Below, one piece after another: positions 4,758 through 41,866 of a DNA stretch of 64,000 bases (the stretch's first letter is position 1; every line of letters starts with the position of its first letter). The notes under the pieces were generated by a model. It made no database searches. It saw nothing but the letters and a program-made list of their open reading frames with translations, and was not told the DNA's origin. The stretch is from Streptomyces albofaciens JCM 4342 (GTDB lineage Bacteria; Actinomycetota; Actinomycetes; Streptomycetales; Streptomycetaceae): positions 434,001 to 498,000 of the forward strand of contig NZ_PDCM01000002.1 in the NCBI RefSeq assembly GCF_008634025.1, written 5' to 3'. The position numbers and the translations under genes are program-made.

Positions 4758-4795
4758 GTCCCGTACGGCCCGGGCCCACCAGAGCCGTACGGGCC
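4758..4795. promoter_or_regulatory. Two candidate OsdR/DevR-type boxes, xfp/USP divergent promoter
   Basis: GTCCCGTACGGCCC (4758-4771) and GAGCCGTACGGGCC (4782-4795) each match GGGCCGTTCGGCCC at 11 of 14 positions and start 24 bp apart. A related palindrome, GGCCGAGTCGGCC, follows at 4792-4804. They lie 51 bp from the xfp start and 123 bp from the USP start. Confidence 0.5.
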
Positions 4796-4918
4796 GAGTC
4801 GGCCGTTTCCACGCGCCGGAGGACGGTCGGCCCGGGGCGGGGACCTGCGGCCCCTCCTGCGGCGAGCCGGTGGCCGACAGGGTGAACATGTCACTCCCGC
4901 CCCGCCCTGGAGGATTCC

Positions 4919-5806
4919 ATGTCCCGTGCTGTCACGGTCGGCCTCGACGGTTCCCGGGAGAGCGTCGCGGCCGCGGCCTGGGCCGCCGACGAGGCTCTGC
5001 TGCGGCGTCTTCCGCTCCGGCTGCTGCACGTGTGGGACCTCGGGCCGGACGTTCACACGCCGCTGCTCGGCCCCGACGTCCGGCCCTACTGGGCCGAGCG
5101 CATGCCCCGCAAGGTCGCGGAGCGGATGCGCGAGACGCATCCGGACCTGGAAACGCGGACGCACCAGAAGTGCGGCGAGCCCGCGGCCGTACTGTGCGAG
5201 GCGGCGCAAGAGGACGAACTGCTCGTTCTCGGCTCACGCGGCCTCGGTGGCCTGGCCGGCGCCATGGTCGGGTCCGTCGCCCTGTCCGTCGTCGCCCGTA
5301 CGCGGTTCCCGGTGATCCTCGTACCTGTTTCGGACCCGGAATCGGAAACGGCCGAAAGCCGCATCCGTGGCGGGGGTTCCGGTGACGTCGTACTCGGCGT
5401 GGACCTCGCCCACCGGAGCGACGAAGCACTGGACTTCGCGTTCGCCCACGCCGACCGGCGCGGTGCGGCACTGCGGGTCCTGCACACCTGGAGCCCACCG
5501 CCTCTCTACGGCACTTCCCCCACAGCGGCCACGGCCGTGGTCGAGTCGGAGGTGACGGCCGTGAAGGAGGCGGCGCTGTCGGAGTTGCTGGAGCCGTGGC
5601 GGCGCAAGTATCCGGAGGTACCGGTCACCGTCCGGTGCCGGCCCGGCCGGGCGGCACGCGACCTCGTGGAAGCCGCCCGCGAGGCAGGACTCGTGGTAGT
5701 CGGCCGCCGCGCCCGCCGTGCGCCCGTCGGCCCCCGCATCGGCTCTGTCGCCCATGCCGTGCTGCACCGTTCCCCCGCTCCCGTGGCCGTTGTGCCCCAC
5801 CCGTAA
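4919..5806 (+). CDS. Tandem universal stress protein
   Basis: The 295-residue protein has two UspA domains (about 1-140 and 155-295). It starts MSRAVTVGLDGSRESVAAAAWAADEA, the usual beta1/alpha1 of the fold. The first domain keeps the ATP-binding pattern LGSRGLGGLAGAMVGSVALSV. The second has VVGRRARRAPVGPRIGSVAHAVL, in which the glycine-rich loop is altered. A good ribosome site (CTGGAGGATTCC) precedes ATG 4919. Tandem USPs are cytoplasmic and typical DosR/OsdR regulon members; their exact task is not known. It is one of four in the window and shares a divergent, boxed promoter region with xfp. Confidence 0.93.
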   Translation: MSRAVTVGLDGSRESVAAAAWAADEALLRRLPLRLLHVWDLGPDVHTPLLGPDVRPYWAERMPRKVAERMRETHPDLETRTHQKCGEPAAVLCEAAQEDELLVLGSRGLGGLAGAMVGSVALSVVARTRFPVILVPVSDPESETAESRIRGGGSGDVVLGVDLAHRSDEALDFAFAHADRRGAALRVLHTWSPPPLYGTSPTAATAVVESEVTAVKEAALSELLEPWRRKYPEVPVTVRCRPGRAARDLVEAAREAGLVVVGRRARRAPVGPRIGSVAHAVLHRSPAPVAVVPHP

Positions 5807-5846
5807 GAGCACCGTCTGTGGGGCTGGGTCCCGCGTCCGTCCTGTG

Positions 5847-5860
5847 GGTCCGTTCGGCCC
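5847..5860. promoter_or_regulatory. Candidate OsdR/DevR-type box
   Basis: GGTCCGTTCGGCCC matches the box at 13 of 14 positions. It lies 40 bp after a USP gene and 480 bp before the next confident gene. The nearest downstream frame is a short broken one at 5943. Confidence 0.45.
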
Positions 5861-5942
5861 AGGTCATCACGATCCCGCCCGCGGGATGCTGCCGGTCAGG
5901 CGACGAGTGCCCGGGCGAGCGCCACCGAAGCAGAGGGCGTGC

Positions 5943-6961: not shown

Positions 6962-7780
6962 ATGAAAACGCACCACACTACGAACCGCCGTCACTCCTCC
7001 GGCCCGCCCCTGCGGCCGTTCAGCGCCGTGCTGATCGACGTCGATCTGGTGCTCACCGACTTCGCCACCGTACGGGCCGCCGCGTGGAAACGTACCTTCG
7101 ACACGTTCCTCAAGGAGATCGTCCCACCCGCTCCCGCGCGCATCCGGCCTTTCGACGCCGCGGAGGACTTCCGGCTCCACGTCGACGGCCGAACGTCCCT
7201 CGACGGCGCCCTGGCCTTCCTCGACGCACGAGGCATCGACGTGCCCGTCGGCGCCCCCGCCGCCCCTGCGGGCTGGTCGTCGGTGCACGCCTTGGTGGCC
7301 CGCGCCGACCAGGTGCTCGAAGGCTATGTGCGCCGCTACGGGGTGACGGCGCGGCCGGGCACGGTCCGGCTGGTCCGGGCCCTGCGGACGCGCGGGATTC
7401 CCGTGGCGGCGGTGTCGGCCGTACGGCATGCCGGTGACCTGCTGGACCGCGCGGAGGCCGGGGACGTCTTCTCCGCTGTCCTCGACCCCGGCAAGCACAC
7501 AGCGCCCGGCCTTCCGGGACCGCCGTCCCCGGACCTGCTGGTGGAATGGGCCCACCGCTTGAGCGTAGCCCCCACCCGCACGGCGGTACTCGAACGGTCT
7601 TTGCCCGGCGTACGGGCCGCCCGGCGTGGCCGGTTCGGCATCACCGTGGCCGTCGACGAATCCCGCGCCATGCGGCACGCAGCGGAGCTGCGGCAGGCCG
7701 GCGCCGAACTCGTCGCCCGCTCGCCAGACGAGTTGTCGGGCACCCTGACGGCCCTCGCCGAGGGGCGATACGCCGCCTGA
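6962..7780 (+). CDS. HAD-superfamily phosphatase/phosphoglucomutase-like protein
   Basis: The 272-residue cytoplasmic protein belongs to the beta-phosphoglucomutase-like branch of the HAD fold. Motif I reads LIDVDLVLTD and keeps both aspartates of the DxD nucleophile pair. The cap region contains AAAWKRTFDTFLK and RPFDAAEDFRLHVDGR, where the DFRLHVDG stretch corresponds to the sugar-phosphate-binding part of actinobacterial beta-PGM relatives. Motif II (AAVSAVRH) follows. The acidic motif near the end is poorly conserved, so activity is uncertain. ATG 6962 follows AGGAGGTCTTCC. A paralogue with a destroyed motif I lies at 28321. A role with the GH65 phosphorylase at 38206, converting beta-glucose 1-phosphate to glucose 6-phosphate, is plausible but inferred. 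Confidence 0.8.
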   Translation: MKTHHTTNRRHSSGPPLRPFSAVLIDVDLVLTDFATVRAAAWKRTFDTFLKEIVPPAPARIRPFDAAEDFRLHVDGRTSLDGALAFLDARGIDVPVGAPAAPAGWSSVHALVARADQVLEGYVRRYGVTARPGTVRLVRALRTRGIPVAAVSAVRHAGDLLDRAEAGDVFSAVLDPGKHTAPGLPGPPSPDLLVEWAHRLSVAPTRTAVLERSLPGVRAARRGRFGITVAVDESRAMRHAAELRQAGAELVARSPDELSGTLTALAEGRYAA

Positions 7781-7806: not shown

Positions 7807-7820
7807 GGGCCGTTCGCCCC
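7807..7820. promoter_or_regulatory. Orphan candidate OsdR/DevR-type box between convergent genes
   Basis: GGGCCGTTCGCCCC (13 of 14) lies 26 bp after the HAD stop, in a 216-bp gap between two gene ends. No convincing coding sequence follows on either strand; it could drive a small or antisense RNA. Confidence 0.35.
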
Positions 7821-7996: not shown

Positions 7997-8704
7997 TCAC
8001 CGGGCCGTGGCGACGTCAGCACGCGACTGCGGGCCGGCACTCACGCGGGTCCGCAGGTTCCGGAACTGCCGCAGCTGCATCAGCAGGTGCACGGGTTCCC
8101 ACAGCAGCAGGTCCAGGGGCCGGGTGAGCGGCCGCGGGCGGCTTTGGCCGCGCGTCCGGACGACGAGCCGGGTACCGCCCTGGGCGGTCCGGCGCAGATG
8201 GAAACCCCAGACGGCATCCGTGTACGCCCCGGACAACGGCCCGAACCGCGCGTCGAAGGGATGACCGGACGGCAGCTCCAGGGACATCCGCAGCACCAGA
8301 GTCCGTTCCGGCTCGACGAGCGCGGCCGTGAACCACGCACCGCCCTCGGGCACCGCCTCCAGACGCTGGCCCTCCTTGAGGTCCTGCCACCGGTCGACGA
8401 TACGCTCGGCACTCGGACGCCCGGCGTTGTCGAGCCGGTCGAAGCTGTACCAGCCCGCACGGTTGCAGCCCATCTGCACCAGCCAGGGCCAGACGGCATC
8501 CGGCGGCGCCGGCAGCGTCGTCGCCATGGTCGACTGCCCGTCGTACCGGGCAATCAGCTCATCCCCGGGCCACTCGCCGGCGGCCTCGGCCCGGGTGGCA
8601 CCCCAGGCCAGCAGACGCGGACGGATGACGACACCGTAGGCGACGGCCGCCACGAGCGCGCCCGCGCGAGGCAGGGACCGCAACACCGGTCGGTTTCCGC
8701 TCAT
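7997..8704 (-). CDS. SRPBCC-fold membrane-anchored protein
   Basis: The 235-residue protein has one N-terminal hydrophobic segment (AGALVAAVAYGVVIRPRLLAWG, about residues 15-36) and then an SRPBCC/polyketide-cyclase-like domain. The family is recognisable from ATTLPAPPDAVWPWLVQMGCNRAGWYSFDRLDN and the later WGFHLRRTAQGGTRLVVRTRG strand. These proteins bind hydrophobic ligands; the ligand here is unknown. ATG 8704 was chosen because the hydrophobic segment follows directly. The ribosome site is weak (GGGAAG), and the frame extends 84 codons upstream through what looks like promoter DNA. Two candidate boxes lie 37 and 57 bp upstream, so it is probably part of the hypoxia regulon. Confidence 0.82.
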   Translation of the reverse strand: MSGNRPVLRSLPRAGALVAAVAYGVVIRPRLLAWGATRAEAAGEWPGDELIARYDGQSTMATTLPAPPDAVWPWLVQMGCNRAGWYSFDRLDNAGRPSAERIVDRWQDLKEGQRLEAVPEGGAWFTAALVEPERTLVLRMSLELPSGHPFDARFGPLSGAYTDAVWGFHLRRTAQGGTRLVVRTRGQSRPRPLTRPLDLLLWEPVHLLMQLRQFRNLRTRVSAGPQSRADVATAR

Positions 8705-8740: not shown

Positions 8741-8774
8741 GGGCCGGCCGGCCCAGAACGGGGCCGTTCGGCAC
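8741..8774. promoter_or_regulatory. Two candidate OsdR/DevR-type boxes, divergent promoter
   Basis: GGGCCGGCCGGCCC (8741-8754, 12 of 14, perfect palindrome) and GGGCCGTTCGGCAC (8761-8774, 13 of 14) start 20 bp apart. They lie between the SRPBCC gene (minus) and the 29-residue membrane protein gene (plus). Confidence 0.6.
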
Positions 8775-9742: not shown

Positions 9743-9793
9743 CCCGTTGGAAAGAAAACACCAGCCGGGCCTTGGGATGAACGGCCGTTCCGC

Positions 9794-9900: not shown

Positions 9901-10257
9901 ATGAACGGCTTCGACCCCGAACACATTCACTGGGACCCCGTGCCTTTCGTCGGCTGGCCGCTCGTGGGAGCCGTGCTGGCCCTGTCCGCCGCCGTGCTGG
10001 TGGCTCTGCTCGCCCGGTTGCGGCACACATGCCGCCGACCGCCCCGACCAGCCGTGCACGTCACCCCGTCCTGCGGCGCCACAGAGGCCCGATCTCGGCC
10101 CACTCCTTGTCCCAAGCGTCGAGACGTCGGCGATCCAGCGCGCGGCGTGCCCACCACGCGGCCGAGAGGACGACGGCGCCCGATCCGACGCCGGCCCACA
10201 CCCCGGTCGCCGTGGCAGCCGACAGTACGTCGTCGTGATCGAGGGGTTTCCTGGTGA
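9901..10257 (+). CDS. Small membrane protein; 3' part overlaps convergent gene
   Basis: ATG 9901 follows AAGGAGGCAGGGTC and opens a 118-codon frame. The first 45 residues look real: MNGFDPEHIHWDPVPFVGWP, then a transmembrane helix (LVGAVLALSAAVLVALLARL) and an Arg-rich end. From about 10061 the frame runs antisense through the last 197 bp of the Rv1733c-like gene and gives low-complexity Arg/Pro sequence. The natural product may therefore be shorter, with a frameshift or sequencing error hiding an earlier stop. Alternatively the two genes truly overlap tail to tail. A candidate regulatory box precedes it. Function unknown. Confidence 0.5.
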   Translation: MNGFDPEHIHWDPVPFVGWPLVGAVLALSAAVLVALLARLRHTCRRPPRPAVHVTPSCGATEARSRPTPCPKRRDVGDPARGVPTTRPRGRRRPIRRRPTPRSPWQPTVRRRDRGVSW

Positions 10258-10645
10258 GCCGGCCGTCGTTCAGGACCCACACGGTGATGTGTGCCCCTTT
10301 CCGCTTGCCGACTTCCACTTGCGTCTCGCCGGTGCGAGCCGATCCGTCCGGCGCGTTCCACCGGACCCTCGCCGGGAAACGGCCACCGACTGTGCCGTCC
10401 CGCTGAGCCACGGCCTCCGGTACGTCCTGCATCAGCTCCGCTGTCACCGGATGACGCGTCCTCTGCTGTTCCCGCATGACCTGGTTCTGCACCTCGTAGG
10501 ACCAGGACGCGGCGCAGAATCCGGCCGTCGGAGCGCCGGCGACCAGCAGCAGCGCCGCCACCAGGCCGAGCCAGCCGTCGACCGCGTCGACCTTGCGGCG
10601 TAACGGGCTACGCCGCCAGCGCCACCACCTGTTCGCAGCGCGCAT
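10061..10645 (-). CDS. Rv1733c-like two-span membrane protein
   Basis: The 194-residue protein has two transmembrane segments, WLGLVAALLLVAGAPTAGFCAASW (about 24-47) and TATGVWAGVGSGAVVLSAAWW (about 150-170). They enclose a mostly beta extracytoplasmic domain (EVQNQVMREQQRTRHPVTAELMQD..., RVRWNAPDGSARTGETQVEVG). The arrangement, N-terminal RRSPLRRKVDAVDGW and C-terminal RRALDRRRLDAWDKEW fit the Rv1733c family, whose mycobacterial member is a known DosR regulon antigen. ATG 10645 has GGAGG nine bases upstream; the 66 codons before it are not protein-like. A near-perfect box lies 80 bp upstream. Molecular function is unknown in the family. Confidence 0.85.
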   Translation of the reverse strand: MRAANRWWRWRRSPLRRKVDAVDGWLGLVAALLLVAGAPTAGFCAASWSYEVQNQVMREQQRTRHPVTAELMQDVPEAVAQRDGTVGGRFPARVRWNAPDGSARTGETQVEVGKRKGAHITVWVLNDGRLTRKPLDHDDVLSAATATGVWAGVGSGAVVLSAAWWARRALDRRRLDAWDKEWAEIGPLWRRRTG

Positions 10646-10724: not shown

Positions 10725-10825
10725 GGGCCGTCCGGCCCGTGGCCGGCGGCGGAAGACGTCGTCCTTGCGGCCGTCCGGGCGCTCCGTCGTCCGGGCGAGG
10801 CGGTCTCACCAGGGCTGTTCGGCCC
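10725..10825. promoter_or_regulatory. Two candidate OsdR/DevR-type boxes, divergent promoter
   Basis: GGGCCGTCCGGCCC (10725-10738) and GGGCTGTTCGGCCC (10812-10825), each 13 of 14, lie 87 bp apart between the Rv1733c-like gene (minus) and the DUF4389 gene (plus). Each probably serves one direction. Confidence 0.6.
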
Positions 10826-10941: not shown

Positions 10942-11679
10942 ATGTCCTGTCCGTCTTATCCGTCCCGTCAGCCCTACCCGGCCCGCCTGGAAGCGGACTT
11001 CCCTTCGCGGGTGTCCCGCTGGCTGTGGCTGGTGAAATGGCTGCTCATCATCCCGCACGCGATCGTGCTGTCACTGCTGTGGATCGCGTTCCTCGCCGTC
11101 AGCGTGGTGGGGTGGTTCGCGATCCTGGTCACGGCCCGGTACCCGCGGGCCCTGTTCGACTTCCAGGTCGGAGTGCTGCGCTGGACCTGGCGGGTGTCGT
11201 TCTACAGCTACTCCGCTCTCGGAACGGACCGCTACCCGCCGTTCCGCCTGGCCGACGTACCCGACTACCCGGCACACTTCGACGTGACGTATCCCAAGCA
11301 CCTGTCCCGCGGCCTGGCCCTGGTCAAGTGGTGGCTGCTGGCCCTGCCCCACTACGCGCTCGTGGCGCTCTTCACCTCCGGGTACGGGAACTGGGGCGGG
11401 CTCATCGGGCTGCTCGTGCTCTTCGCCGCGGTCGCGGTTCTGTTCACCGGGCGCTATCCCGGCGGCATCTTCGCCCTCGTCATCGGGCTCAACCGCTGGG
11501 TGATGCGGGTGGCCGCCTACGCCGCCCTGCTCACCGACACCTACCCGCCGTTCCGGCTCGACCTCGGCGCCGGGGAACCTGCCGACGACAGCCGGCAGGC
11601 CGAACGGAAGTCCAGGAGCGACCAGGACGCCAGGGCCCCGCACCGGACCGCTCAAGGCATCGGGGAAACAGCCGGCTGA
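10942..11679 (+). CDS. DUF4389 membrane protein
   Basis: The 245-residue protein contains a repeated unit. In each half a Pro-rich stretch (YPARLEADFPSRVSRWLWLVKWLL; YPAHFDVTYPKHLSRGLALVKWW) precedes two hydrophobic segments and the motif RYP(R/G)(A/G)(L/I)F...G..RW..R, ending in TDxYPPFRL. This duplication is the hallmark of DUF4389. Four transmembrane helices are predicted by eye. The C-terminal 40 residues are charged and probably cytoplasmic. Start 10942 follows GGAGGGACACC. Function is unknown; a boxed promoter and dormancy-type neighbours suggest hypoxic induction. Confidence 0.88.
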   Translation: MSCPSYPSRQPYPARLEADFPSRVSRWLWLVKWLLIIPHAIVLSLLWIAFLAVSVVGWFAILVTARYPRALFDFQVGVLRWTWRVSFYSYSALGTDRYPPFRLADVPDYPAHFDVTYPKHLSRGLALVKWWLLALPHYALVALFTSGYGNWGGLIGLLVLFAAVAVLFTGRYPGGIFALVIGLNRWVMRVAAYAALLTDTYPPFRLDLGAGEPADDSRQAERKSRSDQDARAPHRTAQGIGETAG

Positions 11680-13637: not shown

Positions 13638-13651
13638 GGGCCGTACGGGCC
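13638..13651. promoter_or_regulatory. Candidate OsdR/DevR-type box before ppk2
   Basis: GGGCCGTACGGGCC (12 of 14) lies 186 bp before the ppk2 start, in a 422-bp gap. The rest of the gap shows only an imperfect inverted repeat (CTTCCTGGAG at about 13748 with CTCCAGGAAA at about 13780) in the ppk2 leader. Confidence 0.5.
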
Positions 13652-14714: not shown

Positions 14715-14753
14715 GGGCCGAACGGCCCCTCGGCAGACGGGCCGCGGCGGCCC
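14715..14753. promoter_or_regulatory. Perfect candidate OsdR/DevR-type box plus second variant
   Basis: GGGCCGAACGGCCC (14715-14728) is the exact reverse complement of the consensus. GGGCCGCGGCGGCCC (14739-14753) has the same arms with a 3-nt centre and starts 24 bp later. They lie 93 and 68 bp before the small membrane protein gene at 14821. Confidence 0.65.
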
Positions 14754-14820: not shown

Positions 14821-15045
14821 ATGTGGGTCATCGGATTCGGTATCGGCGCCATCCTCTGGGGCGGCCTGACCATCATCGGCGGAACCGACAGCGCCGCGTT
14901 CCCGTGGCTCCTGATCTTCGTGGGCGTCATCGCGCTCACCGCCTCGGGCCTCTGGTACGGGCCGCACCGCCACCCCGGCGAGAGCGGGACGGTCCTTGAG
15001 GAGCGGCACTACTACAGTGACCCGCCCACTCATCACCGCCGGTGA
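14821..15045 (+). CDS. 74-residue two-span membrane protein
   Basis: ATG 14821 follows GGCAGGAGGCAGCC. The product has two hydrophobic segments (VIGFGIGAILWGGLTII and FPWLLIFVGVIALTASGLWYG) joined by a short loop (GGTDSAA). Its polar, His-rich C terminus (HRHPGESGTVLEERHYYSD, ending THHRR) is probably cytoplasmic. No named family is recognised. A perfect palindromic box lies upstream and it is followed at once by the hydrogenase promoter, so it is likely induced together with the hydrogenase. Whether it helps anchor a complex is unknown; group 3b hydrogenases are soluble. Confidence 0.75.
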   Translation: MWVIGFGIGAILWGGLTIIGGTDSAAFPWLLIFVGVIALTASGLWYGPHRHPGESGTVLEERHYYSDPPTHHRR

Positions 15046-15050: not shown

Positions 15051-15084
15051 GGGCCGGGCGGCGCGCACCAGGGCCGTTCGGCCC
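15051..15084. promoter_or_regulatory. Paired candidate OsdR/DevR-type boxes before hydrogenase operon
   Basis: GGGCCGGGCGGCGC (15051-15064, 11 of 14) and the exact consensus GGGCCGTTCGGCCC (15071-15084) start 20 bp apart. The perfect copy lies 70 bp before hyhB. Confidence 0.7.
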
Positions 15085-15154
15085 CCTCCCGGCCGGAGTT
15101 CTCCGGCCGACGATGAGGACACGGACCCCATGGGACGCTGCCGAGGAGGCGCTG

Positions 15155-16330
15155 ATGTCCCGGAGTGCAGTTGCACCGGATGCGGTGATCTCGGCGACGG
15201 ACGGGCTGGCCACGCTGGTCGGTGTCCTCGCCGAGGAACACACCGTCATCGGCCCCACCCCCCGCGACGGCGCGATCGTCCTCGCGGAGCTCTCCACGGC
15301 GGACGAGCTGCCGCACGGCTGCGGTGTGGAGACGGCGGCCGGCCGGTACCGGCTGGTGCGCCGCCCGGACGCGATGATCTTCGCGCACAGTGCCGGGCCG
15401 CAGTCGTGGAAGGCGTACCTGCACCCGCAGCGCGAGCGGCTGTGGACGGTGGACCGGGACGCGCGGGGCCGGCTCGCCTTCCGTGCGGAGGACGGCGAGC
15501 CGCCCGCGTACGCGTTCCTGGGCGTACGGCCGTGCGATCTGCGGGCCATTGCCATCCAGGACCGGGTGCTGGGCGGCGGACCGCACGCGGACACCGCCTA
15601 CCGGCGCCGCCGCGACCGTACGTTCATCGTCGCCGTGGAGTGCACCGATCCCGGCGCCACCTGCTTCTGCACGTCGATGGGCACGGGCCCGGGCGTCGGG
15701 GAGGGCGGTCCGCCCGCGTACGACCTGGCGCTGACCGAGGTGCTGGACGAGGACGGGCACCGCTTCCGGGTACGGGCGGGGAGCCCGGCGGGTGAACGGG
15801 TACTGGCCCGGCTCCCCCGCCGTACCTGCGACCCGGCGACCCGGACCGCCGCCCGCGCGGCCGTCACGGCCGCCGCGGAGCACATGGAACGCGCCATGCC
15901 GCCGGTCGACCTGCACACCCTGATGGCCGGTTCACACGACGCCACCCGCTGGGACGACGTCGCCGCACGCTGCCTGACCTGCGGCAACTGCACGATGGTC
16001 TGCCCGACCTGTTTCTGCACCACCACCGAGGACGTCACCGATCTGACGGGCGACCACGCGGAGCGGTGGCAGCGCTGGGACTCCTGCTTCGACCTGGACT
16101 TCACCCACTTGCACGGCGGCCCGGTCCGCGCGTCCGCGCGCAGCCGCTACCGGCAGTGGCTCACCCACAAGCTCGGCACTTGGCACGACCAGTTCGGGGA
16201 GTCGGGCTGTGTCGGCTGCGGGCGCTGCATCGTGTGGTGCCCGGTCGGCATCGACATCACCGAGGAGGCCGCCGCCCTGCACGCGGAGGCCCGCAGCTCG
16301 CACGCCACCGATGAGGAGGCACCGTCATGA
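15155..16330 (+). CDS. hyhB: [NiFe]-hydrogenase (group 3b) iron-sulfur subunit
   Basis: The 391-residue protein carries electrons between the NAD(P)-binding diaphorase subunit and the small hydrogenase subunit. It resembles the HydB/AsrA family. The N-terminal 250 residues form the family domain (AFLGVRPCDLRAIAIQDRV; FIVAVECTDPGATCFCTSMGTG). Two [4Fe-4S] motifs follow, CLTCGNCTMVCP (from residue 273) and CVGCGRCIVWCPVGIDIT (from residue 352), and an additional CFCT lies just after the first motif. ATG 15155 has GAGGAGG seven bases away and was preferred to upstream in-frame ATGs. It is the first gene of a tightly coupled operon and overlaps the next gene by 4 bp. Mycobacterium smegmatis has a comparable DosR-controlled hyhBGSL operon. 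Confidence 0.92.
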   Translation: MSRSAVAPDAVISATDGLATLVGVLAEEHTVIGPTPRDGAIVLAELSTADELPHGCGVETAAGRYRLVRRPDAMIFAHSAGPQSWKAYLHPQRERLWTVDRDARGRLAFRAEDGEPPAYAFLGVRPCDLRAIAIQDRVLGGGPHADTAYRRRRDRTFIVAVECTDPGATCFCTSMGTGPGVGEGGPPAYDLALTEVLDEDGHRFRVRAGSPAGERVLARLPRRTCDPATRTAARAAVTAAAEHMERAMPPVDLHTLMAGSHDATRWDDVAARCLTCGNCTMVCPTCFCTTTEDVTDLTGDHAERWQRWDSCFDLDFTHLHGGPVRASARSRYRQWLTHKLGTWHDQFGESGCVGCGRCIVWCPVGIDITEEAAALHAEARSSHATDEEAPS

Positions 16331-16803
16331 CCACCAGGACCGGACTGAAGACCATGCTGTGTCAGCTGGACGCCCTCAGCGACGACCAGCGTGTGCGGCT
16401 GATGGGCCTGGCCCGCGAGGTGTCCTTCCGGGCGGGTGCGCGGCTTTTCGAGGAGCGCCGCGCCGCCGACCGGTTCTGGATCGTCCGGACCGGCAGCGTC
16501 GTCCTGGACCTCCACGTGCCCGGCCGCCGGGCCGCGGTGATCGAGACCCTGGGCCCCGGGGACCTGGTGGGCTGGTCCTGGCTCTTCCCGCCGCGCAACT
16601 GGCACCTGGGCGCCGAGGCTCAAAGCCCCGTACGAGCCTGGGAGTTCGACGCCGAGGCCGTGCGCCGGCTGTGCCGGGAGGACCCGAAGCTGGGGTACGC
16701 GCTGGTGCTGGCGGTGGCCGAGGTCATCGGGCACCGGCTGGAGTGCGCCCGTACCCGGCTGCTGGACCTGTACGGGCCGTACGGAAGCGGGCTGCCACGA
16801 TGA
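16327..16803 (+). CDS. Stand-alone cyclic-nucleotide-binding-domain protein
   Basis: The 158-residue protein is a single cNMP-binding (CAP_ED) domain. It has the beta-roll sequence VSFRAGARLFEERRAADRFWIVRTGSVVLDLHVPGRRAAVIETLGPGDLVGWSWLFPP and a C-terminal helix (LALVLAVAEVIGHRLECARTRLLDLY). There is no helix-turn-helix, so it is not a CRP-type DNA-binding regulator. In the binding pocket LGPGDLVGWSWLFPPRNW, the FGE(I/L)AL-R phosphate cassette of cAMP sensors is strongly altered, so cAMP binding is doubtful. Start and stop overlap both neighbours (ATGA), placing it stoichiometrically inside the hydrogenase operon. It could be an accessory or sensory subunit of the enzyme; that is inference. 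Confidence 0.88.
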   Translation: MTTRTGLKTMLCQLDALSDDQRVRLMGLAREVSFRAGARLFEERRAADRFWIVRTGSVVLDLHVPGRRAAVIETLGPGDLVGWSWLFPPRNWHLGAEAQSPVRAWEFDAEAVRRLCREDPKLGYALVLAVAEVIGHRLECARTRLLDLYGPYGSGLPR

Positions 16804-17627
16804 CCACGGCCCCCGCCTCTTCCGTGCCGGTGCCCTACCGGGTCACCTGGCGTCGGCGGGAGGCCACGGACACCGTGACGATGAAGATCCGTCCGGTCGG
16901 CCGGCCGCTGCCGGAGTTCCGGCCGGGGCAGTTCGCGATGCTGTACGCCTTCGGGGTCGGCGAGATACCGGTCTCCGTGTCCGGTCTTCCGGTGGGTGAG
17001 AACGCGCTGGTGCACACCGTGCGGGCGGTCGGCGCGGTGTCCCGGGCGCTGTGCGGGCTGGGTGTGGGCGACACCGTGGGGGTGCGGGGGCCGTACGGCA
17101 CCGGTTGGGACCTGGAGACGGCCCTGGGCCGGGACGTTCTCGTGATCGCCGGTGGGATCGGTCTGGCGCCGCTGCGCCCGCTCGTGCTGCGGATGCTGGC
17201 GGAGCCCGGACGTCACGGGCGGATCAGCGTCCTGATCGGTGCCCGCACGCCGAGCGATCTGCTGTACCGGCTCCAGGCCCGCGCGTGGCGTACGGCGGCG
17301 CGGGTGGCGGTCACGGTGGACCGGCCGGAGGCCGGCTGGCAGGGCGACGTGGGCGTGGTCACCCGGCTGCTGCCGCGTGTCCGATGGACACCCGCCGATA
17401 CCACCGCCTTCGTCTGCGGCCCCGAGCCGATGATCCACGCCACCGCGCGTGACCTGGTGCGGGCAGGCGTCCCGCCGCACCGCGTCCACGTGTCGCTGGA
17501 GCGCAACATGCGCTGCGGCGAGGGCAACTGCGGCCACTGCCAGCTGGGCCCCCTCCTGCTGTGCCGGGACGGGCCGGTCACCGGCTGGGACCGCGCCGAC
17601 CCCCTCCTCGCCGTGAAGGAGCTGTGA
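16800..17627 (+). CDS. hyhG: Hydrogenase FAD/NAD(P)-binding reductase subunit
   Basis: The 275-residue ferredoxin-NADP-reductase-like subunit (HydG/AsrB family) passes electrons between NAD(P)H and the iron-sulfur subunit. An FAD domain comes first ([25 protein letters not shown]; the classic RxYS is replaced by PVSVSG, as in this family). The NAD(P) domain follows ([36 protein letters not shown]). The C-terminal [2Fe-2S] motif has cysteines at about 239, 244, 247 and 255 ([17 protein letters not shown]). It overlaps the cNMP gene by 4 bp. The stop (TGA 17625) is followed one base later by the next ATG. The motifs are complete, so the subunit should function. Confidence 0.93.
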
Positions 17628-17628
17628 G

Positions 17629-18456
17629 ATGAGCGCCCCCCGACCGGCCCCCCGCAACGGTGCGGCACCACGCCCGACGCTCGCCGTCTTCAAGCTCGCC
17701 TCGTGCGACGGCTGCCAGCTGACCCTGCTCGACTGCGAGGACGAACTCCTCACCGTGGCCGGGCGGGTGGAGATCGCGCACTTCCTGGAGGCGTCCAGCG
17801 CCGTCCGGCCCGGCCCGTACGACCTCGCCCTCGTCGAAGGGTCCGTCACCACACCGCAGGACGCCGAGCGCGTTCGGGAGATCCGGGCCGCCGCGCGCTT
17901 CCTGGTCACCATCGGCGCCTGCGCCACGGCCGGCGGCATCCAGGCACTGCGCGACTTCGCCGACGTGGAGGAGTTCCGCGCCACCGTCTACGCCCGCCCC
18001 GACTACATCGCCACCCTCGCCACCTCCACCCCCGTCTCCGCCCACGTTCCCGTCGACTTCGAGCTGCGCGGCTGCCCCATCGACCGCGGCCAGCTCCTCG
18101 AAGTGATCACGGCTTTCCTCGCAGGCCGCAAGCCGGACGTGCCCGACCACAGTGTCTGCTTCGCCTGCAAGCGGCGCGGCACCGTGTGCGTGACCGTCGC
18201 GCACGGCACGCCCTGCCTGGGACCGGTCACCCATGCCGGGTGCGGCGCCATCTGCCCGGCGTACGGGCGCGGCTGCTACGGCTGCTTCGGGCCGTCCGGC
18301 TCGGTCAACCTGCCCGCGCTGATCCCGTTGCTGCGGCGGGACGGCATGAGCGAGGACGACGTACGGCGCGCCCTGCGCACGTACAACGCCGCGTCCTTCG
18401 TCGAGGTGGAGGGAGCCGGGGCCGGGGGAGCCGGAGTGAAGGGAGCGCCGTCATGA
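17629..18456 (+). CDS. hyhS: [NiFe]-hydrogenase small subunit
   Basis: The 275-residue electron-transfer subunit of the hydrogenase core holds the proximal iron-sulfur cluster, with motifs for two more. After a short basic N terminus, [17 protein letters not shown] gives the first proximal ligands (Cys26, Cys29). GACATAGG and [14 protein letters not shown] supply the rest. Cysteine-rich segments near the end ([34 protein letters not shown]) provide ligands for medial and distal clusters. There is no twin-arginine signal, so the enzyme is cytoplasmic, as expected for group 3. The Gly/Ala-rich end ([12 protein letters not shown]) is unusual and probably disordered. It overlaps hyhL by 4 bp. Confidence 0.94.
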
Positions 18457-19853
18457 CGCACCGCGGCTCGCGCGTGCTGCACGTCGGCCCGCTCGCCCGG
18501 GTCGAGGGGGAAGGCGCCCTGCACCTGACGGTCGACGACGGCACGGTCACCGGCGCCGAGCTGCGCATCTACGAGCCGCCGCGGTTCTTCGAGGCGTTCC
18601 TGCGCGGCCGCTCCCACACCGAGCCGCCGGACATCACCGCGCGGGTGTGCGGCATCTGCCCGGTGGCGTACCAGATGAGCGCCTGCCGGGCCGTCGAGGA
18701 CGCCTGCGGGGTGACGGTCGACGGGCAACTGGCGGCGCTGCGGCGGCTGCTGTACTGCGGTGAGTGGATCGAGAGCCAGATCCTGCACATCCACCTGCTG
18801 CACGCCCCGGACTTCCTCGGCGTCGACGGCGCGGTCGAACTCGCCCGCACCCAGCGCGCGCACGTGGAACGCGGACTGCGCATCAAACAGGCGGGCAACG
18901 CGATCCTCGAACAGCTCGGCGGACGCGCCATCCACCCGGTCAACGTGCGGCTCGGCGGCTTTCACCGCGTACCGGCCACCGGGGAACTGGGGCCGCTGGC
19001 CGAACGGCTGCGCAGAGCCCGCGACGACGCGTGGCAGACCGTGTGCTGGGTCGCCGGCTTCGACTTCCCCGACGCCGGACTGGACCACGCCCTGCTGGCA
19101 CTGGCCGAACCCGGCCGCTACGCCATCGACTCCGGCACCCCCACCGTCATGGCCGCCCCGCACACCCACGGGCTGCCGTCCGGAACCGCCGCTCCCCTGC
19201 CCCTGCGGCAGTTCCCCGTGTACGCGTTCCCGTCCGAGGTCACCGAGGAGCAAGTTCCCTACTCCACCGCCCTCCAGGCCGCCTTGGACGGCGAGCGCTA
19301 CCTCACCGGCTCGCTGGCCCGCTACGCGATCAGCGGGCGCTGGCTGTCCCCGCTCGCGCAGGAGGCGGCGCGGGCGGGCGGGCTCGGCGATCCGGCGGCC
19401 GGGAAGGTGTGCCGCAATCCGTTCCGCAGCATCGTCGTCCGGGCCGTCGAGGCGCTGTACGCGATCGACGAGGCGCTGCGGATCATCGACGCGTACGAGC
19501 CGCCGCCCCGCCCGTACGTGGCCGTGCCGCCGCGCGCCGGGACCGGCCACGGCGCCACCGAAGCCCCCCGCGGCCTGCTCTACCACCGCTACACGCTGGA
19601 CGCCGCCGGCCTGATCACCGCCGCCACCCTCGTGCCGCCCACCTCCCAGAACCAGGGCGCCATCGAGGACGACCTGCGCCGCCTCGTCCAGGCCCGCCTG
19701 GACACCGGCGCGGGGGACACGGAGGCGGAGCTGACCGCCCTGTGCGAGCGCGGCATCCGCAACCACGATCCGTGCATCTCCTGTTCCGCCCACTTCCTCG
19801 ACCTCACCGTCGACACGGTCGACCGTGCCCGAAGGAGCCCGCCATGCCCGTGA
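18453..19853 (+). CDS. hyhL: [NiFe]-hydrogenase large (catalytic) subunit, group 3b type
   Basis: The 466-residue subunit carries the NiFe(CN)2CO site where H2 is split or formed. Motif L1 reads [29 protein letters not shown] with Cys66 and Cys69. Motif L2 near the end is DPCISCSAH with Cys441 and Cys444, followed by a 19-residue tail ([19 protein letters not shown]) that the maturation protease would remove after His447. Both motifs fit group 3b (bidirectional NAD(P)-linked) hydrogenases. The start overlaps hyhS, and the stop overlaps the CBS gene by 10 bp. Under hypoxia such enzymes dispose of NAD(P)H as H2 or reuse H2; direction cannot be read from sequence. Confidence 0.95.
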
Positions 19854-22688: not shown

Positions 22689-22708
22689 CCACTGTTCGAG
22701 GAGGAAGC

Positions 22709-25707: not shown

Positions 25708-25712
25708 GTGCC

Positions 25713-28031
25713 ATGGACGGCGACCGGGAGGCACGGCGCTTCGAGGTGTACGGGACGGTGCAGGGCGTCGGCTTCCGCCCGTTCGTCCAGCGCCTCGCCT
25801 CCGGGCTGGACCTGGACGGCTGGGTACGCAACGTCGACGGCCATGTCGTCATCGACACCGCCGGGGCCCCGCACTCACTGCGCCGGTTCGCCGCCGCCCT
25901 GCGCGCACAGGCCCCGCCGCTGTCCACCGTACGCCGCATCCGCAGTTCCGCCGATGTCCCCGAACACCCCGCGGTGGGCGCCGGGTTCACCGTGCGCGCC
26001 AGTGCCGCCGCCGATGCCCGGCCGACGCCGCGCGAGATCCCGCCGGACGCGGCGACCTGCGACGCCTGCCTGGCCGAACTGTTCGACCCGGCCGACCGGC
26101 GCTACCGCTACCCCTTCATCAACTGCACCGACTGCGGCCCACGTGCCACCGTGATCACAGGGCTTCCCTACGACCGGCCCCGCACGACGATGCTCTCCTT
26201 CCCGCTGTGCCCGGCGTGCGCGGCCGAGTACCGCGACCCGTCCGACCGGCGCTTCCACGCCGAGCCGCTGGCCTGCCCCGTGTGCGGGCCCCGGTTGTCG
26301 TGGAACGCCGGCGGTCGGAGCGCGACCGGTCCGGCCGCTCTCCGGTCCGCCGAGGAACTGATCGCGCAGGGCGGCATCGTCGCCGTCAAAGGGCTGGGCG
26401 GCTACCAGCTCGTCTGCGACGCGCGGCAACCGGCGGCCGTTCTGCTGCTGCGCCGGCGCAAGCACCGGCCGCACAAGCCGTTCGCCGTGATGGTCGCCGA
26501 CCTGGCCGCGGCGCACCGCATCGCCCGGCCCACCCGTACCGAAAGCCGTCTGCTCACCTCGCCCGCCCGACCCGTGGTGCTGGTCGCGGACGGACCGTCC
26601 GGCAGGGCGAGCGCCGGGGCCGTGCACCCCGGCACCGGACGCATCGGGCTCTTCCTGCCCACAACCGGTCTGCACCATCTCCTCCTGCGCGACCTCGACC
26701 GGCCGCTGGTGGTCACCAGCGGCAATGTCGCCGACGAGCCGATCGCCGTCACGGACGCCGACGCGCGCGAGCGTCTGGCGGAGGTCGCCGACGGCTTCCT
26801 GGCCCACGACCGCCCGATCGCCGCCCGCTACGACGATTCCGTGACGCAAGCCGTACGGGGGCGGGTCCTGACCATCCGGCGGGCCCGCGGGTACGCCCCC
26901 GCTCCCCTGCCGCTCCCGGTGCCGGCCCGTACGCCGGTCGTGGCGGCCGGTGCGCAGAGCAAGCACACCGTGACGGTGGCCTGCGGCGACCGCGCCGTGA
27001 CAGGCCCGCACACCGGCGACCTGTCCGACGCCCGCACCATGGAAGCCTTCGAGCGCTGCTACGCGGACCTCGTGGCCCTCACCGGTGTGGCGCCGCAGGC
27101 CGTGGCACACGACCTGCACCCGGGTTACCTGTCCACCCAGTGGGCGGCTGCGCATTTCGCCCCCGAGCGGCGCGTCGCGGTCCAGCACCACCACGCGCAC
27201 ATCGCCGCCTGTGCGGCAGAGCACCGGCTGCGCGGCCCGTTCCTGGGGATCGCCTATGACGGCCTGGGGTTCGGTGACGACGGCACCTTGTGGGGCGGGG
27301 AAGTCCTGGTCGCCGACTACACCGGCTATCGTCGCGTCGGCCGCTTCGCCACCGCGCCGCTGCCCGGCGGCGAGGCCGCGGTGCGCCACCCGGCGCGGAT
27401 GGCGCTCGGCTACCTGTACGGCCTCGAACCGCTCGGGGTGCCGCCCCCGTCGCCCGAACTCGCCCGCACGTTCACCGGGCGGATGGCCCCGCACGCGGTC
27501 GCGACGGTGCGCACCATGGTCCGGCGCCGCCTCAACTGCCCCCGCGCCTCCAGCGCCGGCCGCCTCTTCGACACCGCCGCCGCGCTGCTCGGGCTCGCCG
27601 ACGACATCTCCTACGAGGGGCAGGCCGCCGTAGCCCTGGAGAACGCGGCCGGTGCCGCGCGCCGGGCCGCGCTCCCCTGGCGCCTGGTCCGCGCCGACGG
27701 GCTGTGGGTCTACGACCCGGCGCCCACCCTGACCGCCCTGCTCGGCCGGCTCCGTGACGGAACGCCCGTACCCTGGCTGGCCGCCGCCTTCCACACCACG
27801 ATCGCCGAAGTCACCGCCGCGCTGGCCGAACGGGCGGTAACCGCCGGCGCCCCGCGCACCGTCTGCCTGGCCGGCGGCTGCTTCGTCAACCGCCGCCTGC
27901 TGACGGACGTGTCCCGGCTGCTGCGCGCCCGGGGGATGCGGGTGCTGGTCGGCAGCGCCGTGCCCGTCGGGGACGGCGGCATCAGCTACGGCCAGGCAGC
28001 GGTCGCCGCCGCCCGCCTGAAGAGGGGGTGA
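25713..28031 (+). CDS. hypF: Hydrogenase maturation carbamoyltransferase HypF
   Basis: The 772-residue HypF makes the carbamoyl group, from carbamoyl phosphate and ATP, that becomes the cyanide ligands of the active site. Domains in order are an acylphosphatase (about 5-90, VYGTVQGVGFRPFVQRLA), zinc-finger cysteine pairs (CDAC, CTDC, CPAC, CPVC between about 110 and 195), a YrdC-like domain (about 205-380, IVAVKGLGGYQLVCDA; KPFAVMV), and a Kae1/TobZ-like carbamoyltransferase domain with VQHHHAHIAACAAEH and CLAGGCFVNRRL. All are intact. ATG 25713 lies 5 bp after the protease stop. Because arcC uses the same substrate, carbamoyl phosphate pools may link the two systems; this is speculation. Confidence 0.96.
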   Translation: MDGDREARRFEVYGTVQGVGFRPFVQRLASGLDLDGWVRNVDGHVVIDTAGAPHSLRRFAAALRAQAPPLSTVRRIRSSADVPEHPAVGAGFTVRASAAADARPTPREIPPDAATCDACLAELFDPADRRYRYPFINCTDCGPRATVITGLPYDRPRTTMLSFPLCPACAAEYRDPSDRRFHAEPLACPVCGPRLSWNAGGRSATGPAALRSAEELIAQGGIVAVKGLGGYQLVCDARQPAAVLLLRRRKHRPHKPFAVMVADLAAAHRIARPTRTESRLLTSPARPVVLVADGPSGRASAGAVHPGTGRIGLFLPTTGLHHLLLRDLDRPLVVTSGNVADEPIAVTDADARERLAEVADGFLAHDRPIAARYDDSVTQAVRGRVLTIRRARGYAPAPLPLPVPARTPVVAAGAQSKHTVTVACGDRAVTGPHTGDLSDARTMEAFERCYADLVALTGVAPQAVAHDLHPGYLSTQWAAAHFAPERRVAVQHHHAHIAACAAEHRLRGPFLGIAYDGLGFGDDGTLWGGEVLVADYTGYRRVGRFATAPLPGGEAAVRHPARMALGYLYGLEPLGVPPPSPELARTFTGRMAPHAVATVRTMVRRRLNCPRASSAGRLFDTAAALLGLADDISYEGQAAVALENAAGAARRAALPWRLVRADGLWVYDPAPTLTALLGRLRDGTPVPWLAAAFHTTIAEVTAALAERAVTAGAPRTVCLAGGCFVNRRLLTDVSRLLRARGMRVLVGSAVPVGDGGISYGQAAVAAARLKRG

Positions 28032-28036
28032 CTCCG

Positions 28037-28324
28037 ATGTGCCTGGGTATCCCGGGCCGCGTCCTGGAGACGTACGAGGACGCCGGACTGCGCATGGCCC
28101 GCGTGGACTTCGGCGGCATCCGCCGCGAAGCGTGCCTGGAATACACCCCCGAGGCCGCCGTCGGCGACCACGTCGTCGTACATGTCGGCTTCGCCATCAC
28201 CACCGTCGACGAGGCCGAGGCGGCCCGCACGCTCGCCGTACTGCGGGCGATGGCGGACGCCGTGGCGGGCGAACTGGGCGAACCACTGCCTGCCGAGCAA
28301 CCCACCGAGGAGGCAGGACGATGA
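28037..28324 (+). CDS. hypC: Hydrogenase maturation chaperone HypC
   Basis: The 95-residue HypC binds HypD and the large-subunit precursor while the Fe(CN)2CO group is delivered. The start is fixed by biology: the essential Cys must be residue 2, giving MCLGIPGRVLE at ATG 28037, although an in-frame GTG at 28028 gives a three-residue extension. The family pattern continues with VDFGGIRREACLEYTPEAAVGDHVVVHVGFAITTVDEAEA, with a typical helix at the end. It lies 5 bp after hypF, and the stop overlaps the following HAD gene by 4 bp. Confidence 0.94.
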   Translation: MCLGIPGRVLETYEDAGLRMARVDFGGIRREACLEYTPEAAVGDHVVVHVGFAITTVDEAEAARTLAVLRAMADAVAGELGEPLPAEQPTEEAGR

Positions 28325-34286: not shown

Positions 34287-34294
34287 GGACGGAC

Positions 34295-34368: not shown

Positions 34369-35295
34369 TCAGTCGTGTGGCACGACGACCACCGGGCACC
34401 TCACGTGATGGATCGCCGCGTGCGCCACCGGACCCAGGTGCGCACCGATCGCGGACCGCCGGTTCCGGCGCCCGATCACCAGCAGTTCCGCGCCCTCGGT
34501 GAGTGCCACCAGGTTCCGGGCGGGCTTACCGGTGCGCAGCAGCTCGGTGATCTCCTGTTCGGGGTACTTCTCCCGCCACAGCCGTAGCGCTCCGGAGACG
34601 GCCCGGCGGGCGCGCGCCTCGGACTCCGCGTAGGCGGTCGGTCCGGGTGCCGCCACCGCCGGGTCGGCGGACGAAGGCGGTGGCTTCCAGGTGTGGACGA
34701 CGCTCAGCGGCGCCCCGCGGCGGGCGGCGGCGTCGAAGGCGAACTCGATCACGGGATCGCATGGACGGCGGGCGTCCAGCCCCAGCGTCACCGCGCGGCA
34801 GGACGTCCGCGACGGGGCCTGTCCGTGCCCGCCGGGTCCCTCCTCGGCCTGCGCGCGGTACCCGGCCCTGACGAGGGCGACCGGCCGGACCGCGTGCGCC
34901 ACGGTGGACATCGCCACCGACCCGACCAGGAAACCGGTCACCCCGCCCAGCCCCCGTGATCCGAGCACCAGCAGTTCCGCCTCCTTCCCCGCCGCGGCCA
35001 GGGCGGCCACCGGCGGTTCGGCCACCAGGTCCGCCACGATCCGCAGGTCCGGATACCGCAGGTTCAGGTCGTTCTCGGCGGACCGCAGGATGCGGCGCGC
35101 CCAGTGCCTGGGTACGGCCAGCTCCGGCAGTACCGGCTCTTTGAGACCCGCGTCCCGGTCCGGGCAGGTCAGCCCTTCCCAGGCGTGCACGAGTCGCAGC
35201 GACAGCCCGCGAAACCGTGCCTCTCGGGCCGCCCAGCCGGCGGCGGCCAGGCTCTCGCGTGAACCGTCCAGTCCGACGGCTATGTGACCGGTCAC
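34369..35295 (-). CDS. Tandem universal stress protein
   Basis: The 308-residue protein has two UspA domains. Domain one has MTGHIAVGLDGSRESLAAAGWAAREARFRGLSLRLVHAWEG and the ATP loop LGSRGLGGVTGFLVGSVAMSTVAHAVRPVALV. Domain two has CRAVTLGLDARRPCDPVIEFAFDAAARRGAPLSVVHTW and ends VIGRRNRRSAIGAHLGPVAHAAIHHVRCPVVVVP. It closely resembles the USP at 4919, including the RR-rich second loop. The start at 35295 has GGGGGTGGGTTTCC upstream. Two candidate boxes lie 72-106 bp upstream, in the gap after the ppdK gene, so it has its own promoter. Confidence 0.92.
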   Translation of the reverse strand: MTGHIAVGLDGSRESLAAAGWAAREARFRGLSLRLVHAWEGLTCPDRDAGLKEPVLPELAVPRHWARRILRSAENDLNLRYPDLRIVADLVAEPPVAALAAAGKEAELLVLGSRGLGGVTGFLVGSVAMSTVAHAVRPVALVRAGYRAQAEEGPGGHGQAPSRTSCRAVTLGLDARRPCDPVIEFAFDAAARRGAPLSVVHTWKPPPSSADPAVAAPGPTAYAESEARARRAVSGALRLWREKYPEQEITELLRTGKPARNLVALTEGAELLVIGRRNRRSAIGAHLGPVAHAAIHHVRCPVVVVPHD

Positions 35296-35366: not shown

Positions 35367-35401
35367 GGGCCGTCCGGGGCGGTACAAGGCCCGTACGGTC
35401 C
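35367..35401. promoter_or_regulatory. Paired candidate OsdR/DevR-type boxes before USP gene
   Basis: GGGCCGTCCGGGGC (35367-35380, 12 of 14) and GGCCCGTACGGTCC (35388-35401, 11 of 14) start 21 bp apart, between the ppdK stop and the USP start. Confidence 0.55.
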
Positions 35402-40686: not shown

Positions 40687-40721
40687 CCCGCTTCCTCTCG
40701 GTCCGGCCGTCCGAGCACGGC

Positions 40722-41738
40722 TCACAGCCGGGCGGCAACGTGCTCGGTCAAGTCCAGGAGCCGGTTCGCGTAGCCCCACTCGTTGTCGTACCAGCCGAAT
40801 GCCTTCACCAGGTCGCCGTGCGCCTGGGTGAGCCCCGCGTCCACGACACAGGAAGCCGGGTCGCCGACGACGTCCCGGGAGACGAACGGCGCGTGGCTCA
40901 CCCGCAGCACCGAGCCGAGCGGCCCGGCGGCGGCCCGCTCGAAAGCCCCGTTGATCTCCTCCGCGGTGGTCTCCTGCCCCAGCAGGACGGTCAGGTCCGT
41001 CAGCGACCCGTCTTCCACCGGCACCCGCACCGCCAGCCCGTCCAGGGCCCCTTCCAGCTCCGGCAGCACGACTCCGACGGAACGCGCGGCACCCGTGGTG
41101 GTGGGGATGATGCTCACGGCAGCCGACCGGGCCCGCCGCAGATCCTTGTGCGGGCCGTCGAGCAGAGCCTGATCGTTGGTGTATCCATGGATCGTGGTCA
41201 TCATCCCCTTGCGAACGCCGAAGGCATCGTGGAGGACCTTGACCATCGGTACGACGCAGTTGGTCGTGCACGACGCGCAGGAGACCACGTGGTGCCGGTC
41301 CGGCTCGTACTCGTCTTCGTTGACGCCCATCACCACAGTCGCGTCCGCGTTCCTGCCCGGGGCCGACAGCAGCACCTTGACCGCGCCGCTCTTCAGATGC
41401 AGCGCGGCGGCGTCCCGGTCGCGGAAACGCCCCGTCGCTTCGATGATGACGTCCGCGCCCGTCTCCCGCCAGTCCAGGCCGGCCGGATCCCGCTGCGAGG
41501 ACACGGCTATCCGCCGCCCGGCGACGAGCAGCGCGCCTTCCTCGGACCCGACCGGCCGACCGAGCCTGCCGTACGTCGAGTCGTACTCCAGCAGATGGGC
41601 CAGGGTCGCCGCCGGCGCGATGTCGTTGACCGCCACCACCTCCACCGGTGTCCCCCTCCCCTCCGCCCGCTCCAGAACGCAACGGAGGTAGTTCCGTCCG
41701 ATCCGCCCGAACCCATTGACCGCTACCCGTACCACCAT
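40722..41738 (-). CDS. gap: Glyceraldehyde-3-phosphate dehydrogenase
   Basis: The 338-residue glycolytic enzyme produces 1,3-bisphosphoglycerate and NADH. The Rossmann motif VAVNGFGRIGRNYLR opens the protein. Catalytic Cys157 lies in SCASCTTNC, and MTTIHGYTNDQ and the C-terminal WYDNEWGYANRLLDL follow the family pattern. The adenine-binding VNDIA after strand beta2 suits NAD preference. It is probably an extra copy for hypoxia and not the housekeeping gene, because it heads the operon with GH65 and PPDK behind a perfect palindromic box 115 bp upstream. Phosphoketolase would feed it with glyceraldehyde 3-phosphate. Confidence 0.95.
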   Translation of the reverse strand: MVVRVAVNGFGRIGRNYLRCVLERAEGRGTPVEVVAVNDIAPAATLAHLLEYDSTYGRLGRPVGSEEGALLVAGRRIAVSSQRDPAGLDWRETGADVIIEATGRFRDRDAAALHLKSGAVKVLLSAPGRNADATVVMGVNEDEYEPDRHHVVSCASCTTNCVVPMVKVLHDAFGVRKGMMTTIHGYTNDQALLDGPHKDLRRARSAAVSIIPTTTGAARSVGVVLPELEGALDGLAVRVPVEDGSLTDLTVLLGQETTAEEINGAFERAAAGPLGSVLRVSHAPFVSRDVVGDPASCVVDAGLTQAHGDLVKAFGWYDNEWGYANRLLDLTEHVAARL

Positions 41739-41852
41739 GCCGTGCCGCCTTCGTCGTGGCTTTTTCACAGACACGTACACGCGCCGCCGGCTCCCGCGGG
41801 GACCGTTCGCGGCACGCGGACCACCTTCCCGGGTGGCGGCCCGTCGGGGAGG

Positions 41853-41866
41853 GGGCCGAACGGCCC
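41853..41866. promoter_or_regulatory. Perfect candidate OsdR/DevR-type box, GAPDH operon / membrane protein divergent promoter
   Basis: GGGCCGAACGGCCC is the exact reverse complement of the consensus. It lies 115 bp before the gap start (minus) and 118 bp before the gene at 41984 (plus). Confidence 0.65.

Follow-up and report, generated by a model that had tools for sequence, protein, structure and literature searches.

The palindromic boxes that mark most promoters of a ~37.2-kb island within the analyzed stretch of DNA (hereafter the window: 64 kb, positions 434001-498000 of contig C2 in a 9.25-Mb Streptomyces genome of two contigs) are best explained as operators of a response regulator of the OsdR/DevR family. 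The pattern originally described is confirmed. We regard this explanation, including the mechanism proposed below, as probable, and the original prediction, in which the motif was interpreted as OsdR/DosR-type, is supported. The basis is threefold: the boxes fit a matrix derived from published sites, they are crowded upstream of the island genes, and they keep a constant spacing to a -10-like signature in related genomes and at half of the window promoters examined. The motif has been described before, as the binding site of a regulator of low-oxygen dormancy. New here are the genes that it marks, which include a hydrogenase and the regulator itself, and the absence of the usual sensor partner from the island. 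The boxes appear to form a genuine operator set, familiar in type but newly placed, in which the hydrogenase gene string is probably self-reinforcing and the sensor seems to have been displaced.

To avoid circularity, the scoring matrix was taken from published sites, namely the 26 S. coelicolor OsdR sites of Table 1 in Urem et al. 2016 (PMC5069765), with the window excluded; its rows are mostly sites predicted in that paper, one sequence occurs twice, and the resulting bits are not PREDetector scores. The word on which the original prediction was based differs in its core from the OsdR consensus in print, AGGGCCGATCGGCCCT (PMC5069765), at one central base only. The exact word GGGCCGTTCGGCCC occurs six times in the genome, and four of these copies, at the predicted positions 14715, 15071, 25031 and 41853, are in the island. 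When up to one mismatch is allowed, 75 matches are found genome-wide (palindromes may count twice, and the reversed-pattern control gives 47), 10 of them in the 37.2-kb island versus 0.3 expected; with up to three mismatches, the window contains 104 matches versus a mean of 49.6 and a maximum of 66 in 100 shuffles. At a threshold of 12 bits, the matrix yields 12 matches in the island and none elsewhere in the window, compared with 7 across the 200 kb of flanks and 17 across random stretches totalling 400 kb; at 10 bits or more, the respective numbers are 21, 0, 17 and 37.

Gene calls relied on a simple codon-based score for which the window served as training set, and the limits of the island were set after the sites had been seen. 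Under this definition, sites of at least 10 bits are located upstream of 12 of the 18 genes called in the island, in agreement with the claim that most of its promoters carry the palindrome. The corresponding figures are 2 of 88 for the flanks and 7 of 221 for stretches drawn at random from the genome (Fisher p 1.4e-11, island versus random); the random set was left uncleaned and includes one of the two exact copies that the genome has beyond the island. The 12 upstream regions represent 10 distinct sites, two of which serve divergent genes, and 6 of the 18 regions lack a site of this strength; the Rv1733c-family gene scored too low to be called and does not count among the 18. In the rest of the window, 2 of 13 upstream regions are positive, both in front of genes at the island edge, xfp and 41984, for which the sites are shared with the island, and no site of at least 10 bits is present between 42 and 64 kb, where none had been predicted; the best intergenic match there is at 58401 (9.4 bits). 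Both a fit to the published matrix and an upstream enrichment of the operator, as expected of an OsdR/DevR regulon, are therefore on record for the island. As for the two exact copies outside it, the one at C2:393621 has no called gene start nearby, and the one at C2:823969 (position 2992 of the random stretch L110), far from the island, is the best box found (21.8 bits). The latter is flanked by divergent genes, one of them response-regulator-like, and given that it lies between them at ~200 bp before a called gene, a promoter at this site is possible.

The genes of the island that bear most directly on the argument are as follows.

2338-4707, minus strand: phosphoketolase gene xfp at the island edge (Pfam)
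10942-11679, plus strand: DUF4389 gene, at the position of osdK in the sister genome (S. rimosus)
15185-19853, plus strand: hydB, cNMP-binding protein, hydG, small and large subunits of a [NiFe] hydrogenase, putatively of the sulfhydrogenase type (Pfam)
19844-23269, plus strand: CBS-BON protein, hypD, hypE, flavodoxin-domain protein
23332-24030, plus strand: OsdR/DevR-like response regulator, the final gene of the hydrogenase/hyp string (Pfam Response_reg and GerE)
25168-28324, plus strand: maturation protease (HycI family), hypF, hypC

In addition, the island encodes PPK2, an acyl-CoA synthetase, PPDK, a GH65 enzyme, GAPDH, a beta-lactamase-family protein, two HAD-family proteins and, counting those listed above, two CBS-BON and two flavodoxin-domain proteins. 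Products of DosR type, as claimed for this stretch, are indeed there and comprise universal stress proteins (USPs; three by Pfam and a fourth, at 34369, by eye), a Rv1733c-family protein (10061-10645) that exceeds its NCBIfam cut-off, CBS-BON proteins and, as in M. smegmatis, a hydrogenase.

The position of the boxes relative to promoters was analyzed in 99 loci of relatives and in the window, where 246 of the 259 strong sites (at least 13 bits) are intergenic by the codon-score gene calls. Among 122 proximal promoters of relatives, thinned from 137 by dropping near-identical promoters only, an A and a T four bases apart were seen in 30 at distances of 31.5 and 35.5 bp from the box centre and in 29 at 32.5 and 36.5 bp, two sets that may overlap; the pair at 33.5 and 37.5 bp was found in 9 promoters, and every other tested offset yielded 0 to 5. 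This loose spacing was first noticed in the relatives and afterwards applied to the window, where 7 of 14 oriented promoters, hand-picked from matrix matches, carry the 32.5/36.5 pair and no other offset is seen in more than two; at the hydB and hycI promoters, these letters are identical in the sister genome. A search for strict TANNNT at 26.5-42.5 bp from the centres of window sites of at least 9 bits yielded none. The spacing fits a -10 element with a transcription start ~43 bp after the box centre, which would place the start-proximal box next to the -35 region in the relatives and in the same 7 of the 14 window promoters. Furthermore, 49 of 158 promoters of relatives have a second site of at least 5 bits at a distance of 19-24 bp upstream, versus 4 of 158 for the control range of 40-45 bp (again, near-identical promoters only were dropped), and the spacing is 20-24 bp in 59 of 116 pairs from related genomes, with one duplicate locus left out. 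Most window promoters have a single box; clear pairs are 8741/8761 and 9774/9794, and a weak second box (2.9 bits) is present at hydB. The window boxes, with the presence of the -10 signature where it was assigned, are the following.

4820-4833, plus strand: box between xfp (minus) and a USP gene (plus), 11.3 bits; no -10 signature
8741-8754, minus strand: gene-proximal box of a 20-bp pair before gene 7997-8653, 13.5 bits; -10 signature on the minus strand
8761-8774, minus strand: distal box of this pair, 14.2 bits
9774-9807, plus strand: pair of boxes spaced by 20 bp, ahead of a possible small ORF, 9.0 and 10.8 bits
10725-10738, minus strand: box before the Rv1733c-family gene (10061-10645), 15.0 bits; no -10 signature
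10812-10825, plus strand: box before the DUF4389 gene, 16.1 bits; -10 signature
13638-13651, plus strand: box between the beta-lactamase-family gene (minus) and PPK2 (plus), 12.3 bits; no -10 signature
14715-14728, plus strand: exact-core box before a 74-aa membrane-protein ORF (14821-15045), 16.8 bits; -10 signature
15071-15084, plus strand: perfect box heading the string of hydrogenase genes, 20.0 bits
25031-25044, plus strand: perfect box between a USP gene (minus) and hycI/hypF/hypC (plus), 20.0 bits
29245-29258, plus strand: box before the acyl-CoA synthetase gene (29322), 10.1 bits; -10 signature
35388-35401, minus strand: box before the USP-like gene 34369-35295, 11.9 bits; no -10 signature
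41853-41866, minus strand: perfect box before the GAPDH gene, 20.0 bits; -10 signature on the minus strand

The centre of the 15071 box is 108 bp before the called hydB start and is followed by a -10-like GACGAT at about 15109-15114 (a hand-counted position); this box and the one at 25031 are identical in S. rimosus, and the latter is accompanied by a -10-like CACTCT towards hycI and by none towards the USP gene. By hand count, the GAPDH start is probably near 41738. In the sister genome, the box of the Rv1733c-family gene scores 10.8 bits, and that of the acyl-CoA synthetase scores 12.3 bits and has a second box 20 bp upstream. The pair at 9774/9794, which was missing from the original list, precedes a possible small ORF that starts at 9902 with AAGGAGG in front, and its proximal box lacks the -10 signature. 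Several of the listed promoters hold in part. The xfp/USP promoter has its box at 4820, the copies at 4758 (below 7.5 bits) and 4782 (8.2 bits) being poor; those of the acyl-CoA synthetase and PPK2 genes are present as weaker cases, the latter box being 216 bp before the called start; and the supposed SRPBCC gene (7997-8653) has its box pair, whereas its product yields no Pfam match at E 0.001. Boxes were also observed within called genes, at 7185-7200 in a HAD-family gene (16.5 bits), at 17087-17102 in hydG (13.7 bits) and at 17797 (11.9 bits), the first two being either internal promoters or chance matches. Two more, at 5847-5860 (12.6 bits) and 7807-7820 (10.8 bits), are in gaps without a clear nearby gene start, where a small RNA or small ORF is possible; in a search for hidden RNAs in the window, no Rfam family reached its gathering score.

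These boxes inside genes, the capacity of the word for self-pairing and the background of 10-bit matches in random stretches would be compatible with hairpins, or with a repeat dispersed over a G+C-rich genome, rather than with operators. Such an origin is extremely improbable in view of the upstream placement, the fixed -10 spacing and the enrichment in a single island, and the operator interpretation is supported also by the OsdR sites for which a gel shift was reported (PMC5069765). In the mechanism that we propose, a phosphorylated dimer of the regulator, bound on or next to the -35 region at ~43 bp upstream of the start point, would activate transcription, assisted at some promoters by another dimer positioned two helical turns further upstream.

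A candidate for the regulator in question is encoded in the island itself. The product of the gene at 23332, correctly recognized as DevR-like, matches M. tuberculosis DevR (3c3w) with E 5.5e-65 and retains the DevR aspartate and an intact AEKTVKN stretch, i.e., it is a NarL-type regulator that combines the phospho-acceptor Asp with the DevR recognition stretch, as expected for the OsdR/DevR family. The ten genes called between 15185 and 24030 all lie on the plus strand, never more than 71 bp apart, and end with the regulator; the order of hydrogenase genes, hypE and regulator recurs in three loci of relatives (L171, L177 and L184). Given that the regulator ends a string headed by the perfect 15071 box, a positive loop is predicted: on the co-transcription suggested by gene order, the level of the regulator would probably rise together with that of the hydrogenase.

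The genome encodes three further OsdR-like regulators (78, 73 and 62% identical to that at 23332), and the sister genome encodes four with 91, 77, 73 and 63% identity to it. One of the paralogues, C1:3965039, which has an adjoining kinase, or C2:4241314, could control the island through the same OsdR-type operators, the regulator at 23332 being weak or decaying. In line with this possibility, AEKT(V/I)KN is common to all four regulators, the recognition helix is nearly the same, of the four only C1:3965039 adjoins an OsdK-like gene, such genes occurring at three places in the genome, and the 23332 receiver is one residue shorter than that of S. rimosus, lacking one Asp of the three-Asp run after LTSF that the sister keeps in full, a loss that may weaken phosphorylation. 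Decay is opposed by the open reading frame, the 91-92% identity to the S. rimosus copy and the recurrence of the regulator at the end of hydrogenase strings in the three loci named above; on balance, control by a paralogue appears rather unlikely. A longer loop after the phospho-acceptor Asp was also observed in the 23332 regulator, in common with S. rimosus. The locus C1:286500-306499 encodes an OsdR-like regulator without an OsdK-like gene, beside dehydrogenase-complex-like genes; to judge by the neighborhood, this orphan is perhaps the counterpart of SCO3818.

The heme-GAF kinase that is expected beside an OsdR/DevR regulator was not found at the island: no OsdK-like gene is present in the 64-kb window or in 200 kb of its flanks, and remains of osdK, sought at 10.7-12 kb with the kinase of the sister, were represented by chance-level window matches only, the best of which (E 0.023) is elsewhere. 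In S. rimosus, the kinase gene is located between the Rv1733c-family and beta-lactamase-family genes, i.e., in the position taken by the DUF4389 gene in the window. Among the loci retrieved through the regulator, of which the best 80 of 283 were taken, 66 of 80 contain an OsdK-like gene; the S. rimosus locus was scored as kinase-less because its kinase is just beyond the stretch taken. Relative to the C1 OsdK of the window's genome, the sister kinases have identities of 96, 58, 47 and 41%. Given that the window's genome has this C1 kinase and copies at 47 and 41% only, the island-type kinase is the absent one.

The sensor of low oxygen would act in trans, the most likely candidate being the DosT/DevS-like kinase C1:3966775, which adjoins the OsdR-like gene C1:3965039 among genes for AdhE, nitrate reductase (beta subunit) and pyruvate formate-lyase. 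This kinase combines GAF, HisKA_3 and HATPase domains, and its GAF domain matches DosT with E 3.9e-50 and keeps the histidine motif HHPPMRTFLGVP, the histidine of which presumably binds heme, as in DosS/DosT. The surrounding stretch (C1:3955500-3975499, L132) appears as a second low-oxygen-type island, with nitrate reductase, AdhE, an OsdR-like regulator, OsdK, a USP-like gene and PFL, and has strong boxes of its own at stretch positions 14181, 15229 and 19364. A precedent for sharing is available in S. coelicolor, where a single kinase, SCO0203, phosphorylates two regulators, serving also the orphan SCO3818 (PMC3881020, PMC5069765).

Two other views of the signal were considered. The boxes could define a general stress regulon that responds not to oxygen but, for example, to nitric oxide, redox state or development; S. 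coelicolor OsdR also affects stress and developmental genes (PMC5069765), and the island has no sensor of its own. The hydrogenase, nitrate-reductase, AdhE and PFL genes of the two islands and the induction of the matching M. smegmatis hydrogenase at low oxygen (PMC2799521) argue against such a cue, which we consider unlikely. Alternatively, the 23332 regulator, with no adjoining kinase and a changed receiver loop, might have dropped its sensor altogether and have acetyl phosphate from the edge phosphoketolase (2338-4707) as its main phosphodonor, such that carbon overflow rather than a heme sensor would turn on both the hydrogenase and the regulator. OsdR has been phosphorylated in vitro with acetyl phosphate (PMC5069765), and 12 of the 80 OsdR loci examined in relatives, the 80 best out of 283, contain a phosphoketolase gene; this idea is highly improbable in our estimate, and sensing of low oxygen in trans remains the preferred reading.

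The extent to which box control of the hydrogenase is shared within Streptomyces can be gauged from 76 of 392 genomes, the window's own included, that encode close relatives of the large subunit at E 1e-60. The best or among the best matches of the alpha, beta, gamma and delta subunits are sulfhydrogenase NCBIfam models, with scores far below the curated cut-offs; the enzyme may be of the NAD(P)-linked sulfhydrogenase type, group 3b, and may belong to the same group as Hyh of M. smegmatis. A lone protein with a cyclic-nucleotide-binding domain is encoded within the string (16327-16803). In 20 hydrogenase stretches of up to 20 kb, hand-picked from the 76 genomes, a site of at least 13 bits is present in 19, OsdR in 6 and OsdK in 5; in other species, OsdR is found in 5 of 19 such loci. 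With the sister excluded, 7 of 19 loci have a site of at least 10 bits within 350 bp of hydB, compared with 7 of 221 promoters taken at random from the window's genome and searched over 300 bp (p 1.5e-5), and in other species 5 of the 7 sites are at -93 to -116. A box at hydB as a general feature of Streptomyces is rejected at 7 of 19, and control of the hydrogenase by the box is therefore supported in part of the genus only. A literature search retrieved no title or abstract on OsdR boxes at a Streptomyces hydrogenase, which, with subscription papers mostly outside its reach, is not proof of absence. Counted against the overall explanation are this scarcity of hydB boxes and OsdR genes in hydrogenase loci of other species, the three additional OsdR-like regulators, the 6 of 18 island upstream regions below 10 bits, the 7 of 14 window promoters without the -10 spacing, the residue lost from the 23332 receiver and the mostly single window boxes.

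By sequence evidence, these results extend the OsdR-type regulon to hydrogen metabolism in Streptomyces, in parallel to the case measured in M. smegmatis. The promoter rule, with a box centre ~43 bp before the start and a second box two turns upstream, can be used for target prediction, and two close species, one with and one without the island kinase, offer a natural experiment on how a single oxygen sensor might be shared among several regulators.

Compared with known systems, the window has in common with the OsdR (SCO0204)/OsdK (SCO0203) regulon of S. coelicolor the operator type, the clustering of sites around the regulator gene, USPs and PPDK. In S. coelicolor, the regulator and kinase form an osdR-osdK operon, nitrate-reductase genes are part of the cluster and a hydrogenase goes unmentioned in the main text of the paper (PMC5069765); unlike in S. 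coelicolor, the window regulator ends a hydrogenase/hyp string and has no OsdK-like gene with it. In M. smegmatis, a DosR-type cluster with a devR copy (msmeg_3932-3955) adjoins a low-oxygen-induced hydrogenase (msmeg_3931-3927; PMC2799521), and Hyd3 (Hyh) is listed as dos-regulated (PMC8125079). The window resembles that island in combining a DosR-type cluster with a hydrogenase and differs from it, as a member of another genus, in that the regulator sits inside the hydrogenase gene string. At M. tuberculosis DevR promoters, sites are closely packed and cooperatively bound, the start-proximal one overlapping the -35 element (PMC3029386); the box position suggested for the window and the relatives is the one where DevR sites overlap -35, whereas the window promoters, unlike those of DevR, mostly have one clear box.
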